From Rhodoferax sp. OV413 (lineage in GTDB: Bacteria; Pseudomonadota; Gammaproteobacteria; Burkholderiales; Burkholderiaceae_C): a stretch of 64,000 nucleotides of DNA. A model generated the notes under the pieces. It did not search any database, was not told the origin of the DNA, and saw nothing but the letters and a program-made list of their open reading frames with translations. The DNA is taken from positions 1 to 64,000 of the forward strand of contig NZ_FNJA01000008.1 of NCBI RefSeq assembly GCF_900104385.1, written 5' to 3'. Shown here one piece after another: positions 41,964 to 48,567 of the stretch (positions within the stretch are counted from its first letter, which is position 1; the number at the start of each line of letters is the position of its first letter). Position numbers and translations under genes: made by a program.

Positions 41964-42005
41964 GGCGATACACCTGAAGCCTTGCCAAGGCCTAAAATTC
42001 GCGGC

Positions 42006-42584
42006 ATGAACATCCACCAGCTATCGGCGCGCTACATCGAGGAGCAAGACCGCATTCTGGTGCGCATCAACACCAGCGAAGGCAGTGAAATGCGCCTGTG
42101 GCTGACCCGCCGCCTGACCCTGGCGCTGTGGCCTACGCTGAACAAGGCCGTGGTCGAGCACATCGCCCGGCAAGACAGCTTTACCGCCCATCTGCACGAC
42201 GAAGCCAGCAAGAAAATGCTGGCCGACTTCCAACGCGAAGCCGTGCTCAAGAGCGCCGATTTTTCTACCCCCTACCAGGACCAGGATGCGGCCGACCCGG
42301 TCACCCTGCCCCTGGGCACGGCCCCGCTGCTGGTCACCGAGGTGCGGATCACGCCGGTGGCCAGCGGCCCCCTGAAGATCGCCTTCAACGAGCAGTTGCC
42401 CGAGCAGAAATCGCCGCGCGGCTTCCAGGTCGAGCTGGCGCCGCCGCTGGTGCACGGCCTGGTACAGCTCCTGGAGCAGGCCCTGGCCCAGTCCGCCTGG
42501 ACCCAGGCCAGCGAAGTGCAGGAAGCGTTGACCCGGTCTACCGGCAGCGCCGCCGCCGAGGACCGGCCCAAGTACCTGAACTAG
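42006..42584 (+). CDS. Conserved-looking protein of unknown function
   Basis: A 192-residue soluble protein starting MNIHQLSARYIEEQDRILVR at the ATG at 42006. Stretches such as RLWLTRRLTLALWPTL and GFQVELAPPLVHGLVQLLEQ look like a structured alpha/beta protein. It has no signal peptide, membrane segment or motif I can assign. It is divergent from clpB and ends about 40 bases before the short open frame that heads the DapA-family leader. Function unknown. Confidence 0.7.
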   Translation: MNIHQLSARYIEEQDRILVRINTSEGSEMRLWLTRRLTLALWPTLNKAVVEHIARQDSFTAHLHDEASKKMLADFQREAVLKSADFSTPYQDQDAADPVTLPLGTAPLLVTEVRITPVASGPLKIAFNEQLPEQKSPRGFQVELAPPLVHGLVQLLEQALAQSAWTQASEVQEALTRSTGSAAAEDRPKYLN

Positions 42585-42622
42585 GCACGCCGGCCAAGTC
42601 CGTGCGTGCGTACAATCGGTCC

Positions 42623-42718
42623 ATGCATTCCAGCTCCACGCCCATGACCTCGCAGTGCCTCGCCCTGCGTGGTAGCAGCGTGGCCGCCGGTGCATCCAAA
42701 AAACCCCAGCTCATCTGA
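42623..42718 (+). CDS. Possible 31-residue leader peptide upstream of the DapA-family gene
   Basis: A short open frame starts at the ATG at 42623 and ends with TGA at 42716-42718. It ends ASKKPQLI, so two adjacent lysine codons (AAA AAA) lie seven codons before the stop. No Shine-Dalgarno sequence precedes it, but TACAAT at 42611-42616 would place a transcription start at or near the ATG, allowing a leaderless message. The stop codon is inside the left arm of the first hairpin of the leader. It is a plausible regulatory uORF, not proven. Confidence 0.4.
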   Translation: MHSSSTPMTSQCLALRGSSVAAGASKKPQLI

Positions 42719-42829
42719 CCGGAGCTGCGGTTCCGTCCTCAGATGAGCGATGGAACCGACACTCTCCCCTCCTCCCCGTCCGGTCCGCGCTCCTTTGAAG
42801 ATGGTTCTCCATCGGTCTTTGTCAAAGGA
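42709..42829 (+). promoter_or_regulatory. Leader RNA with four alternative hairpins upstream of the DapA-family gene
   Basis: Four pairings can be read directly. A: GCTCATCTGA (42709-42718) with TCAGATGAGC (42739-42748). B: CGGTTCC (42728-42734) with GGAACCG (42752-42758). C: CGATGGAACC (42748-42757) with GGTTCTCCATCG (42803-42814), leaving a 2-base bulge. D: TCCTTTGA (42791-42798) with TCAAAGGA (42822-42829), enclosing GATGG/CCATC. A excludes B, B excludes C, and C excludes D. D covers AAAGGAA, the ribosome binding site of the GTG at 42837. This is the form expected of an attenuator or riboswitch expression platform. No T-run follows any hairpin, so control would be at translation. Confidence 0.7.
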
Positions 42830-42836
42830 AACAAGC

Positions 42837-43715
42837 GTGCGTTCTCTGAATGATTTTTCTGGCCTGTGGATTTCCCTGGTCACCCCTTTTGCCGACGGTG
42901 CGGTAGACCACCCGGCCCTGGCCCGGCTGGTGCAGCAGCTGCGCGGCACCGGCATTGCCGGCTTCGTCGCCTGCGGCTCCACCGGCGAGGCCGCGTCGCT
43001 GGATGAAGCCGAGCAACAAGCCGTGCTGGACACGGTGCTGGCAGCCGCCCAGGGCCTGCCGGTGGTGATGGGCTTGTCGGGCTACCACCTGCCCAAGATG
43101 CTGGCTGCGGTGCACGCCACCAGTGCCCAGCCGGTCGCCGGCCTGCTGGTCACCGCGCCCTGCTACATCCGGCCCTCACAAGCCGGGCTGCTAAGCTGGT
43201 TCACCGACCTAGCCGACGCATCCCAGGTGCCGCTGATCATCTACGACATTCCCTACCGTACCGGCGCCACGCTGGAGCTGGCCACCCTGCTACAGCTGGC
43301 CCGGCACCCGCGCATCCGCGCCATCAAGGACTGCGGTGGCGATGCGGCCAAGACCGCCGCCCTGGTCGCCAGCGGCGCGCTACAGGTGCTGACCGGCGAA
43401 GATGCGCAGTTCTTCAACACCCTGGCCCAGGGCGGCGCGGGTGCAATATCCGCCAGCGCCCATGGCCATACGCAACGGTTTGTAAAAGTGATGCAGGCGA
43501 TTGCCGAAGGTGATCTGCCGCAGGCCCGGACGCTGTGGCAGCCGCTGCTGCCCTGGATCGCCGGCCAATTTGCCGAGCCGAACCCAGGCCCTATCAAGGG
43601 CTGGCTGGCGCACTACGGGCTGATGCAGGCAGAGCTACGGGCGCCGATGACGGTGGCCTCAACGGCCCTGGTGGACCGGCTGGTCACACTGGACCAGAAC
43701 CTGCCGCCGGTCTGA
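42837..43715 (+). CDS. DapA-family aldolase (4-hydroxy-tetrahydrodipicolinate synthase-like)
   Basis: A 292-residue (beta/alpha)8 class I aldolase of the DHDPS/N-acetylneuraminate lyase family. Key residues are present: the Schiff-base Lys164 (IRAIKDCGG), Tyr136 with Arg141 (YDIPYRTG) and the pyruvate-binding loop GSTGE at 47-51 (GTTGE in classical DapA). The sequence departs from the usual housekeeping DapA, so it may be a paralogue with another aldehyde substrate. The start is a GTG at 42837, because AAAGGAA lies six to seven bases upstream and gives the usual family length. The frame is open back to 42750, but that would run through the leader hairpins. Confidence 0.85.
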   Translation: MRSLNDFSGLWISLVTPFADGAVDHPALARLVQQLRGTGIAGFVACGSTGEAASLDEAEQQAVLDTVLAAAQGLPVVMGLSGYHLPKMLAAVHATSAQPVAGLLVTAPCYIRPSQAGLLSWFTDLADASQVPLIIYDIPYRTGATLELATLLQLARHPRIRAIKDCGGDAAKTAALVASGALQVLTGEDAQFFNTLAQGGAGAISASAHGHTQRFVKVMQAIAEGDLPQARTLWQPLLPWIAGQFAEPNPGPIKGWLAHYGLMQAELRAPMTVASTALVDRLVTLDQNLPPV

Positions 43716-47322: not shown

Positions 47323-48567
47323 CTAGACCAGCACTTCCACGCAGGCCGGGTGGCCTAGAAAACCTTGCGGGCTGGCACTCGCACCATAGGCGCCCGACTG
47401 GAACACCACCACCAGATCGCCCTCGTCGGCTCGGGGCAAGACCATGCGGTCGCCCAGCAGATCCAGCGGCGTGCAGAGCGGGCCGACCACGGAGGCTGGC
47501 TCGGTATCCAGCGCGCCCATGCGGTTACCGATGGCCACCGGATAGTTTTTGCGGATCACCTGGCCGAAGTTGCCCGAGGCCGAGAGATGGTGGTGCAAAC
47601 CGCCGTCGGTGACCAGAAACACCTGGCCGCGCGAGACCTTGCGGTCCAGCACACTGGCCACATACACGCCGGCCTCGCCCACCAGATAGCGGCCGAGTTC
47701 GATGACGAACGCCGCTTGGGGAAGCTCAGTCTTGGCGCGCTCGGCCAATGCGGCCAGGTTGTCGCCAATCGGCCGCAGATCGATGCGCTGCTCCCCAGGG
47801 AAGTAAGGAATGCCAAAACCGCCGCCCAGGTTCAAAAAGCGCACTGGCTGCGGCGCGCTGTCGGCCAGGCGCACGGCCAGCGCGTAGGACTTTTGTTGGG
47901 CTTCGCAAATCGATTCGGGGCGCAGGTTTTGCGAACCGGCGAACAGGTGAAAGCCTTCGAACGCCAGGCCTGCGGCACCGATGGCGGCCAGCAGCTCGGG
48001 CATCTGCTCCACGTCCACGCCAAACTGCTTGGGGCCACCGCCCATCTTCATGCCCGAGCCCTTGAGCTCGAAATCGGGGTTCACGCGCACCGCGACCCGG
48101 GCGGGCACGCCCAGCGCGGCAGAAATCTTCTCCAGCAGATGTACTTCGCGCATGGATTCGAGGTTGATCAGCACGCCCGAGGCCACGGCCTGGCGCAGCT
48201 CGGCCTCGCGCTTGCCCGGGCCGGCGAAGCTGACCTCTTGCGGGTCGGCGCCGGCATCCAGCGCCACCTTGAGCTCGCCGGCCGAGGCGACATCGATGCC
48301 GTCGACCAGCCCGGCCATCAGCCCGACCACCGCCGGCATGGGGTTGGCCTTCATCGCATAGTGCAGCTTGACGCTGGCCGGCAAGGCGCTGCGCAGCTCG
48401 GCCACCCGGTTGCGCAGCTGGGTCCGGTCATACGCGTAGAACGGGGTTTGGCCCACCCGCGCAGCCAGTTGCGACAAGGGCATGCCGCCCACCACCAGCT
48501 CGCCGTCACGGACAGGAAACTGGGACAGAGGCGCGTGGACGGGGATGGGGCGGTCGATGGCGGTCAT
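47323..48567 (-). CDS. PLP-dependent decarboxylase, exosortase A system-associated
   Basis: A 414-residue fold-type III PLP enzyme of the ornithine/diaminopimelate decarboxylase superfamily, most like TIGR03099, found beside exosortase-A loci. The PLP lysine lies in KLHYAMKANPMP near residue 85, glycines of the phosphate loop in NLGGGFGIPYF, and the C-terminal LCTPLDLLGDRM and VVFQSGAYGASASP are family features. The substrate is unknown. It is 12 bases from both neighbours, so the ligase, decarboxylase and membrane protein form one leftward operon. Confidence 0.9.
   Translation of the reverse strand: MTAIDRPIPVHAPLSQFPVRDGELVVGGMPLSQLAARVGQTPFYAYDRTQLRNRVAELRSALPASVKLHYAMKANPMPAVVGLMAGLVDGIDVASAGELKVALDAGADPQEVSFAGPGKREAELRQAVASGVLINLESMREVHLLEKISAALGVPARVAVRVNPDFELKGSGMKMGGGPKQFGVDVEQMPELLAAIGAAGLAFEGFHLFAGSQNLRPESICEAQQKSYALAVRLADSAPQPVRFLNLGGGFGIPYFPGEQRIDLRPIGDNLAALAERAKTELPQAAFVIELGRYLVGEAGVYVASVLDRKVSRGQVFLVTDGGLHHHLSASGNFGQVIRKNYPVAIGNRMGALDTEPASVVGPLCTPLDLLGDRMVLPRADEGDLVVVFQSGAYGASASPQGFLGHPACVEVLV

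Follow-up and report, generated by a model that had tools for sequence, protein, structure and literature searches.

The trp, his, thr and leu leaders of Proteobacteria are ribosome-mediated, four-segment attenuators. Translational attenuators such as those of ermC and cat use an upstream open reading frame (uORF) to control the opening of a sequestered Shine–Dalgarno (SD) sequence, TnaC is a stop-codon arrest peptide, and the lysine (L-box) riboswitch (RF00168) controls genes of the lysine pathway. The leader peptide trpL of Sinorhizobium meliloti reportedly has a leaderless start. Excerpts of the literature describe the ribosome-mediated amino-acid attenuators of Proteobacteria (PMC1183508), S. 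meliloti trpL as the leader peptide of an attenuator (PMC7298713) and, for Lactococcus lactis, a leader gene that precedes lysQ (PMC4833913).

The DNA analysed here (positions 1–64,000 of contig NZ_FNJA01000008.1 from Rhodoferax sp. OV413, assembly GCF_900104385.1; hereafter the window, 64,000 nucleotides) contains a leader in front of a DapA/DHDPS-family gene that we call a variation on the leader-peptide attenuators, with the SD replacing the terminator stem. Our favoured reading, held with some but by no means full confidence, is a translational attenuator under ribosome control that acts on a DHDPS paralogue, with lysine codons as the likely sensor. If true, Proteobacteria would possess a leader that uses lysine codons and has its output at the ribosome-binding site. 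The leader shares with the amino-acid attenuators control codons for one amino acid in a leader peptide, four segments with three alternative pairings and a biosynthetic-type gene downstream; unlike them, it has the SD as its fourth segment and no terminator, its codons are for lysine, it contains an extra hairpin (B) and its uORF often appears to be leaderless. The proposed uORF-governed opening of the SD, for which predicted SD accessibility hardly changes, resembles ermC and cat, but the gene is not a drug-resistance gene and lysine codons or a dwell at the stop take the place of the drug. A short uORF, a UGA stop and conserved C-terminal residues recall TnaC, whereas here the lysines shift with compensation while AAA is kept, and the output is SD occlusion. 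S. meliloti trpL is likewise an attenuator leader peptide and reportedly leaderless, but has Trp codons, a terminator and a different gene and class. In the excerpt available for lysQ, a leader gene also lies 5′ of a lysine-named gene, although that gene encodes a permease and the organism is a Firmicute.

As with the L-box riboswitch, the gene downstream comes from a lysine-pathway enzyme family, but cmscan gave no covariance-model match of RF00168 to the leader. At gathering scores the sole Rfam match in the whole window was a tRNA, and the leader itself produced one chance-level match (E = 2.4). Many Burkholderiales carry the element, as does Pseudomonas, and it has no Rfam match. The original prediction knew of no described element of this kind upstream of dapA paralogues; in agreement with this, no description of the leader was found in the open-licence literature among the matches listed, and the words 'dapA' and 'lysine' are absent from the main text of PMC2965389, PMC4833913, PMC4603805 and PMC5688073.

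The gene (42837–43715, forward strand) starts with GTG at 42837 and encodes 292 residues that match PF00701 (163.9 bits) and TIGR00674 (dapA; 206.9 bits against a cut-off of 206.15, a margin of less than 1 bit). TIGR00674 has nine matches in the same genome, the best of which (367.6 bits) lies on a different contig; the leader-bearing gene is a paralogue, and the canonical dapA is located elsewhere in the genome. Alignment to Escherichia coli DHDPS (PDB code 2pur) revealed the replacements S48A, H53E, H56Q, N80Y, E84K and Y106C, with A49 unchanged, so that the paralogue differs at six of the seven positions that we take to be the lysine-feedback residues (S48, A49, H53, H56, N80, E84 and Y106). 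Residues Y107, Y133, R138 and K161, presumably catalytic in the E. coli enzyme, are retained. Judged from this alignment, the protein appears to be a DHDPS paralogue without the lysine feedback site, and expression control could therefore replace allosteric control. Two longer products were considered and rejected. An in-frame N-terminal extension from the ATG at 42750 (a 321-residue ORF) is excluded because the relatives L004 and L005 carry stops in that frame, and readthrough or frameshifting from the uORF into the gene is excluded because indels in the hub of the leader, defined below, do not preserve the frame (L007 is 2 nt shorter there than L002).

Homologues of the paralogue (E ≤ 1e-70) are present in 94 of 399 genomes of the family. 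Ninety of these loci were read (those of G059, G122, G165 and G359 were left out), of which 83 carry the leader by pattern and 86 if the altered copies at L054, L072 and L073 are included; no leader was detected by pattern, by eye or with the covariance model at L053, L058, L078 and L081. A covariance-model search, a check suggested with the original prediction, located the element (model R1) once each in 89 of the 399 family genomes and in eight of 300 genomes of the order, four of them outside the family; all five of the additional model-found loci that were inspected precede the same DapA-family gene. In a gene-blind pattern scan that extended to at least 120 stretches, 78 of the 80 loci listed precede this gene, the exceptions being L149, where the stretch ends too early, and L171, an archaeal MAG and probably a chance match. 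Scan and family loci overlap in some genomes, so these counts are not additive. The element occurs in, among others, Variovorax, Polaromonas, Rhodoferax, Acidovorax, Achromobacter, Bordetella, Paraburkholderia, Caballeronia, Cupriavidus, Ralstonia, Herminiimonas, Undibacterium, Azoarcus, Pseudomonas and one Serratia, but is not general in the class, since a thinly spread class sample gave one genome of 274, the query itself.

The family pattern was TGACCGG with one mismatch allowed, and the gene-blind scan required GCTC, TGACCGG and CCGTC exactly; conservation of these three motifs is therefore partly by construction. The lysine codons, the 3′ arm of B, segment 3 and the SD were absent from the search patterns. 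The 163 leaders collected (83 from the family, 80 from the scan) were reduced to 160 for motif analysis (neither L149 nor L171 has a match to the gene, and L166 has too little upstream sequence), and 13 of these, which lack the pre-SD motif as coded, were omitted from the swap and folding tests, leaving 147 loci, 137 distinct sequences and 49 protein clusters. Two copies stand out. At L039, a long insert between segment 3 and CGGTC places the uORF stop 365 nt from the gene, against 98–236 nt in the other 82 pattern loci, and at L106 the DapA-family gene is split over two frames behind an intact leader, which is probably why the protein search missed it.

The query leader is unusually stable: positions 42623–42860 (238 nt) fold at −86.1 kcal/mol, compared with −68.15 ± 4.53 for dinucleotide shuffles (z = −3.96; none of 200 as good). 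Helix A (segments 1:2; 42709–42718 with 42739–42748, forward strand) forms ten of ten pairs, and its main run is 97% paired with both-sided changes at five pairs among the 78 distinct sequences in an alignment of 83 family relatives. Helix B (42728–42734 with 42752–42758, extending to 42728–42737 with 42749–42758; ten pairs, one of them G·U) is 90% paired in the same sequences, also with five pairs changed on both sides, and 94% paired in a wider set (72 distinct sequences) whose alignment was fitted to the model. Together, A and B show both-sided changes in ten pairs, a count and a covariation score matched by none of 500 shuffles, while five of 500 reached their number of further pair types. 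A hairpin at the uORF stop, P0 (42707–42712 with 42722–42727), is 88% paired with three pairs changed on both sides, and its outer part, P0b (42702–42705 with 42729–42732), contains the pair of highest column-wise MI (42705–42729). The structure P0 + B + core of A exceeds all 500 shuffles in both-sided pairs and covariation score, and P0 + B in the 72 distinct wider-set sequences, again in the alignment fitted to the model, gives 61 both-sided cells where 20.9 are expected.

Because the register of long-range pairs slides among sequences, these were assessed by a swap test, in which the energy of each locus's own duplex is compared with that of swapped partners, for the 137 distinct loci first and then for the 49 cluster representatives. 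On the representatives, A gave z = −3.0 (3 of 1000 swaps), B z = −8.3 and P0b z = −4.9, although just ten of the 49 beat shuffled partners for P0b by z < −1. A further strong signal came from a long-range helix, E (segments 2:3), in which 42733–42737, 42739–42743 and 42745–42749 pair with 42800–42804, 42794–42798 and 42788–42792, respectively. Its arms (42733–42749 and 42788–42804) join the hub, made up of the left arm of B and the right arm of A, to the segment before the SD. For E, z is −8.7 (0 of 1000), and 47 of the 49 representatives beat shuffled partners by z < −1, so that E co-evolves on a par with B; each half by itself is weaker (z = −3.8 and −3.4). Helix D (segments 3:4; 42791–42798 with 42822–42829, eight of eight pairs) covers AAAGGA of the SD AAAGGAA (42824–42830) and gave z = −4.5 (0 of 1000), with 23 of the 49 representatives at z < −1. 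Five control pairs ranged from z = −1.7 to +1.1; borderline values were obtained for U × P5 (45 of 1000, clusters) and for hubL × SD (27 of 500, on the 137 distinct loci). Column-wise MI, which supported P0b and B, ranked pairs of neither E nor D in its best 45; the sliding register may account for the absence of E, but we still count it as evidence against.

A, E and D share segments and co-evolve, and thus constitute mutually exclusive 1:2, 2:3 and 3:4 pairings. The original prediction had drawn four helices, A–D, each excluding the next. A, B and D lie where they were drawn and co-evolve, in the alignment for A and B and in the swap test for all three, and D as paired would hide the SD as proposed. 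Helix C, between the 3′ arm of B and the region before the SD, is possible in the query if a two-base bulge is allowed, but it is the control at z = +1.1 and is rejected; with it falls the chain, in which E takes its place, the hub pairing in A, B or E and the pre-SD segment in E or D. The element is real and conserved beyond what that prediction could know, with one helix corrected and E, P0 and P0b added. Sequence comparison shows conservation of the uORF with its AAA lysine codons, and also of the five helices A, B, D, E and P0.

Between segment 3 and the SD lies CGGTC (42813–42817), a perfect complement of GACCG at the uORF stop (42717–42721); this pair is too conserved for swapping to test (26 of 500). 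An NGGTC followed by an SD-like motif is present in 147 of the 160 loci. This region also bears on transcription attenuation, in which a C/T-rich spacer after B would load Rho or the hairpin before CGGTC would act as a weak terminator. By eye, the spacer is C/T-rich and G-poor in many loci, one weak terminator-like site is found on the forward strand of the query (42800–42813) and T-rich stretches lie 3′ of CGGTC in some relatives. However, no T run follows the hairpin in the Pseudomonas loci displayed, and the SD region co-evolves with segment 3; the 3:4 pairing is not an intrinsic terminator, since D pairs with the SD. We regard such a mechanism as very unlikely.

The uORF (42623–42718, forward strand; ATG at 42623, TGA at 42716–42718) has 31 codons and ends in SKKPQLI, a tail kept in relatives, most of which follow the consensus K[AS]KK[PQ]xL[IV] before the stop. 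As originally noted, the TGA lies within helix A, where it is the terminal part of the left arm; the two lysine codons, AAA AAA at 42698–42703, are codons −6 and −5, however, and not the last ones. Among 143 distinct uORF tails, lysine is found at codon −5 in 140, at −6 in 120 and at −8 in 127 (the query has none at −8), and all 143 have at least two lysines among codons −9 to −5. These are encoded by 377 AAA and 37 AAG (91% AAA), whereas the first 260 codons of the downstream genes contain 557 AAG and 103 AAA (84% AAG) and lysine makes up just 1.6% of the downstream-gene codons; the run is thus enriched over the gene background, as leader-peptide attenuators for amino acids require. Lysine at −9 or −7 occurs in 11 of the 23 tails without Lys −6 but in only 14 of the 120 with it (Fisher p = 2e-4, for related and not independent sequences). 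The genome encodes both tRNA-Lys(CUU) and tRNA-Lys(UUU), among the 30 of 47 tRNA matches whose loci were scanned, so that by the wobble rules AAA is probably decoded by the UUU species alone. Conservation of codons −5 and −4 is partly due to P0b rather than to lysine. The short leader ORF is common to the relatives, except that at L017 the stop and the lysine codons lie in different frames and at L157 a stop codon occupies position −5.

The same tail could be read as a TnaC-like arrest peptide, the K[AS]KK[PQ]xL[IV] chain stalling at the UGA when a ligand is present, with the parked ribosome blocking A and partly B so that E would form and the SD would open. The K.KK order is largely conserved from Comamonadaceae to Pseudomonas, and 159 of 160 loci have a C after the stop (UGAC), the remaining one a U (UGAU); TGACCGG was part of the search patterns, yet L054, which was found by the covariance model, has a TAG stop. 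Against this, residues −4 to −1 lie within or beside the pairings P0, P0b and A, arrest would not need AAA to be kept over AAG, and the lysines shift position with compensation. Compensation and codon bias make a strictly fixed arrest peptide less likely, and arrest as such seems to us unlikely.

A −10-like hexamer, TACAAT (42611–42616), is followed 6 nt later by the uORF ATG, and the mRNA is predicted from the sequence to start at or near this AUG, that is, to be leaderless. A transcription start downstream of 42760, which the original prediction named as incompatible with its proposal, is accordingly unlikely given this hexamer. A −10-like hexamer 6–8 nt 5′ of an in-frame uORF ATG was observed in 121 of 158 loci drawn from the 160, compared with a mean of 3.9 and a maximum of 10 after shuffling. 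A strict σ70 scan of 42300–43000 found no promoter. The hexamer is absent from all ten Achromobacter and from seven of the eight Pseudomonas loci tested, where a 5′ leader may precede the uORF. As a separate observation by eye, L053 and L058, which lack the element, have a −10-like hexamer directly 5′ of the gene's own ATG, an arrangement resembling loss of the attenuator with retention of its promoter.

The original prediction allowed for a riboswitch instead, and a metabolite-binding RNA with a kissing or pseudoknotted fold of P0, A and B, to which the uORF would be incidental, is suggested by the compact, conserved fold, by the interleaving of A and B and by the strong conservation of the P0 loop, although the latter stems partly from the construction of the search pattern. 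A pure riboswitch is made less likely by the in-frame lysine codons, which are conserved although no search pattern contained them and whose codon bias runs counter to that in the genes, and the −10-spaced ATG in 121 of 158 loci and the lack of an Rfam riboswitch match point the same way, leading us to consider it quite improbable.

In the ribosome-controlled attenuator that we favour, a transcript that begins at the uORF AUG or close to it would be translated, and segments 1–4 would be the end of the uORF, the hub, the region before the SD and the SD itself, with the pairing options 1:2 (A), 2:3 (E) and 3:4 (D) and with B as an additional local partner of the hub. When the end of the uORF is free of a ribosome, A would form, segment 3 would be free and D would hide the SD (off); a ribosome held there, by slow decoding of lysine or by a dwell at the UGA-C, would block A and release the hub for E, so that the SD would open (on). 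The original idea that the state of the helices gates access to the SD and is coupled to a lysine-containing uORF thus survives through conservation and co-evolution, though not by way of C, and its conclusion that a stalled ribosome blocking A would favour D gives way to a chain with E that could favour expression instead.

Nested equilibrium folding, which excludes pseudoknots such as one between the B loop and segment 3, was averaged over the 147 loci. Mainly A and D form without a ribosome, B and D with codon −5 in the ribosomal A site, and B, more E and slightly less D with the ribosome on the stop. On the lysine codons, B forms rather than E and mean SD accessibility changes by −0.006; the median difference between E and B is +5.1 kcal/mol when lysine-stalled, favouring B, and −1.2 kcal/mol at the stop with a footprint to +17. 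E increases only when a ribosome sits at the stop codon with its footprint reaching about +15 to +17, and it peaks near +17; this also speaks for an arrest peptide, yet SD accessibility then rises little, from 0.27 to 0.30. In the query, extending the footprint from +13 to +15 takes E from 1 to 13 pairs and D from 7.2 to 3.3, with SD accessibility increasing just from 0.23 to 0.28. The original caution that the sign of control cannot be deduced is borne out by the formation of B on the lysine codons and the rise of E at the stop only. Since equilibrium folding does not confirm SD opening, we only infer the sign: expression would be on upon lysine shortage, which is also what a simple prediction would give for a lysine-pathway enzyme without a feedback site. 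Likewise inferred are that the uORF is translated, that lysyl-tRNA is the signal and that the SD is affected. A bolder reading is a three-state switch, in which the leader would adopt A without a ribosome (off), B when a ribosome occupies the lysine AAA codons and E when it has reached the UGA-C stop (on); we offer this tentatively and consider it rather doubtful. If true, the gene would read both tRNA-Lys(UUU) charging and stop dwell by means of a single hub and its three co-evolving partners.

The genomic surroundings add some minor observations. Two neighbours of the gene lie on the opposite strand, a ClpB-type gene and, downstream, a MoaE gene. Immediately upstream of the leader is an ORF (41982–42584) without a Pfam match for 187 residues (42021–42581), whose end, PKYLN followed by the stop, recurs by eye just 5′ of the leader in the genus relatives L003–L005. 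About 4 kb downstream of the paralogue, on the other strand, is an ornithine/DAP/arginine decarboxylase family gene (47323–48567; PF02784 and PF00278), which adjoins a gene with a below-cut-off match to O-antigen ligase.
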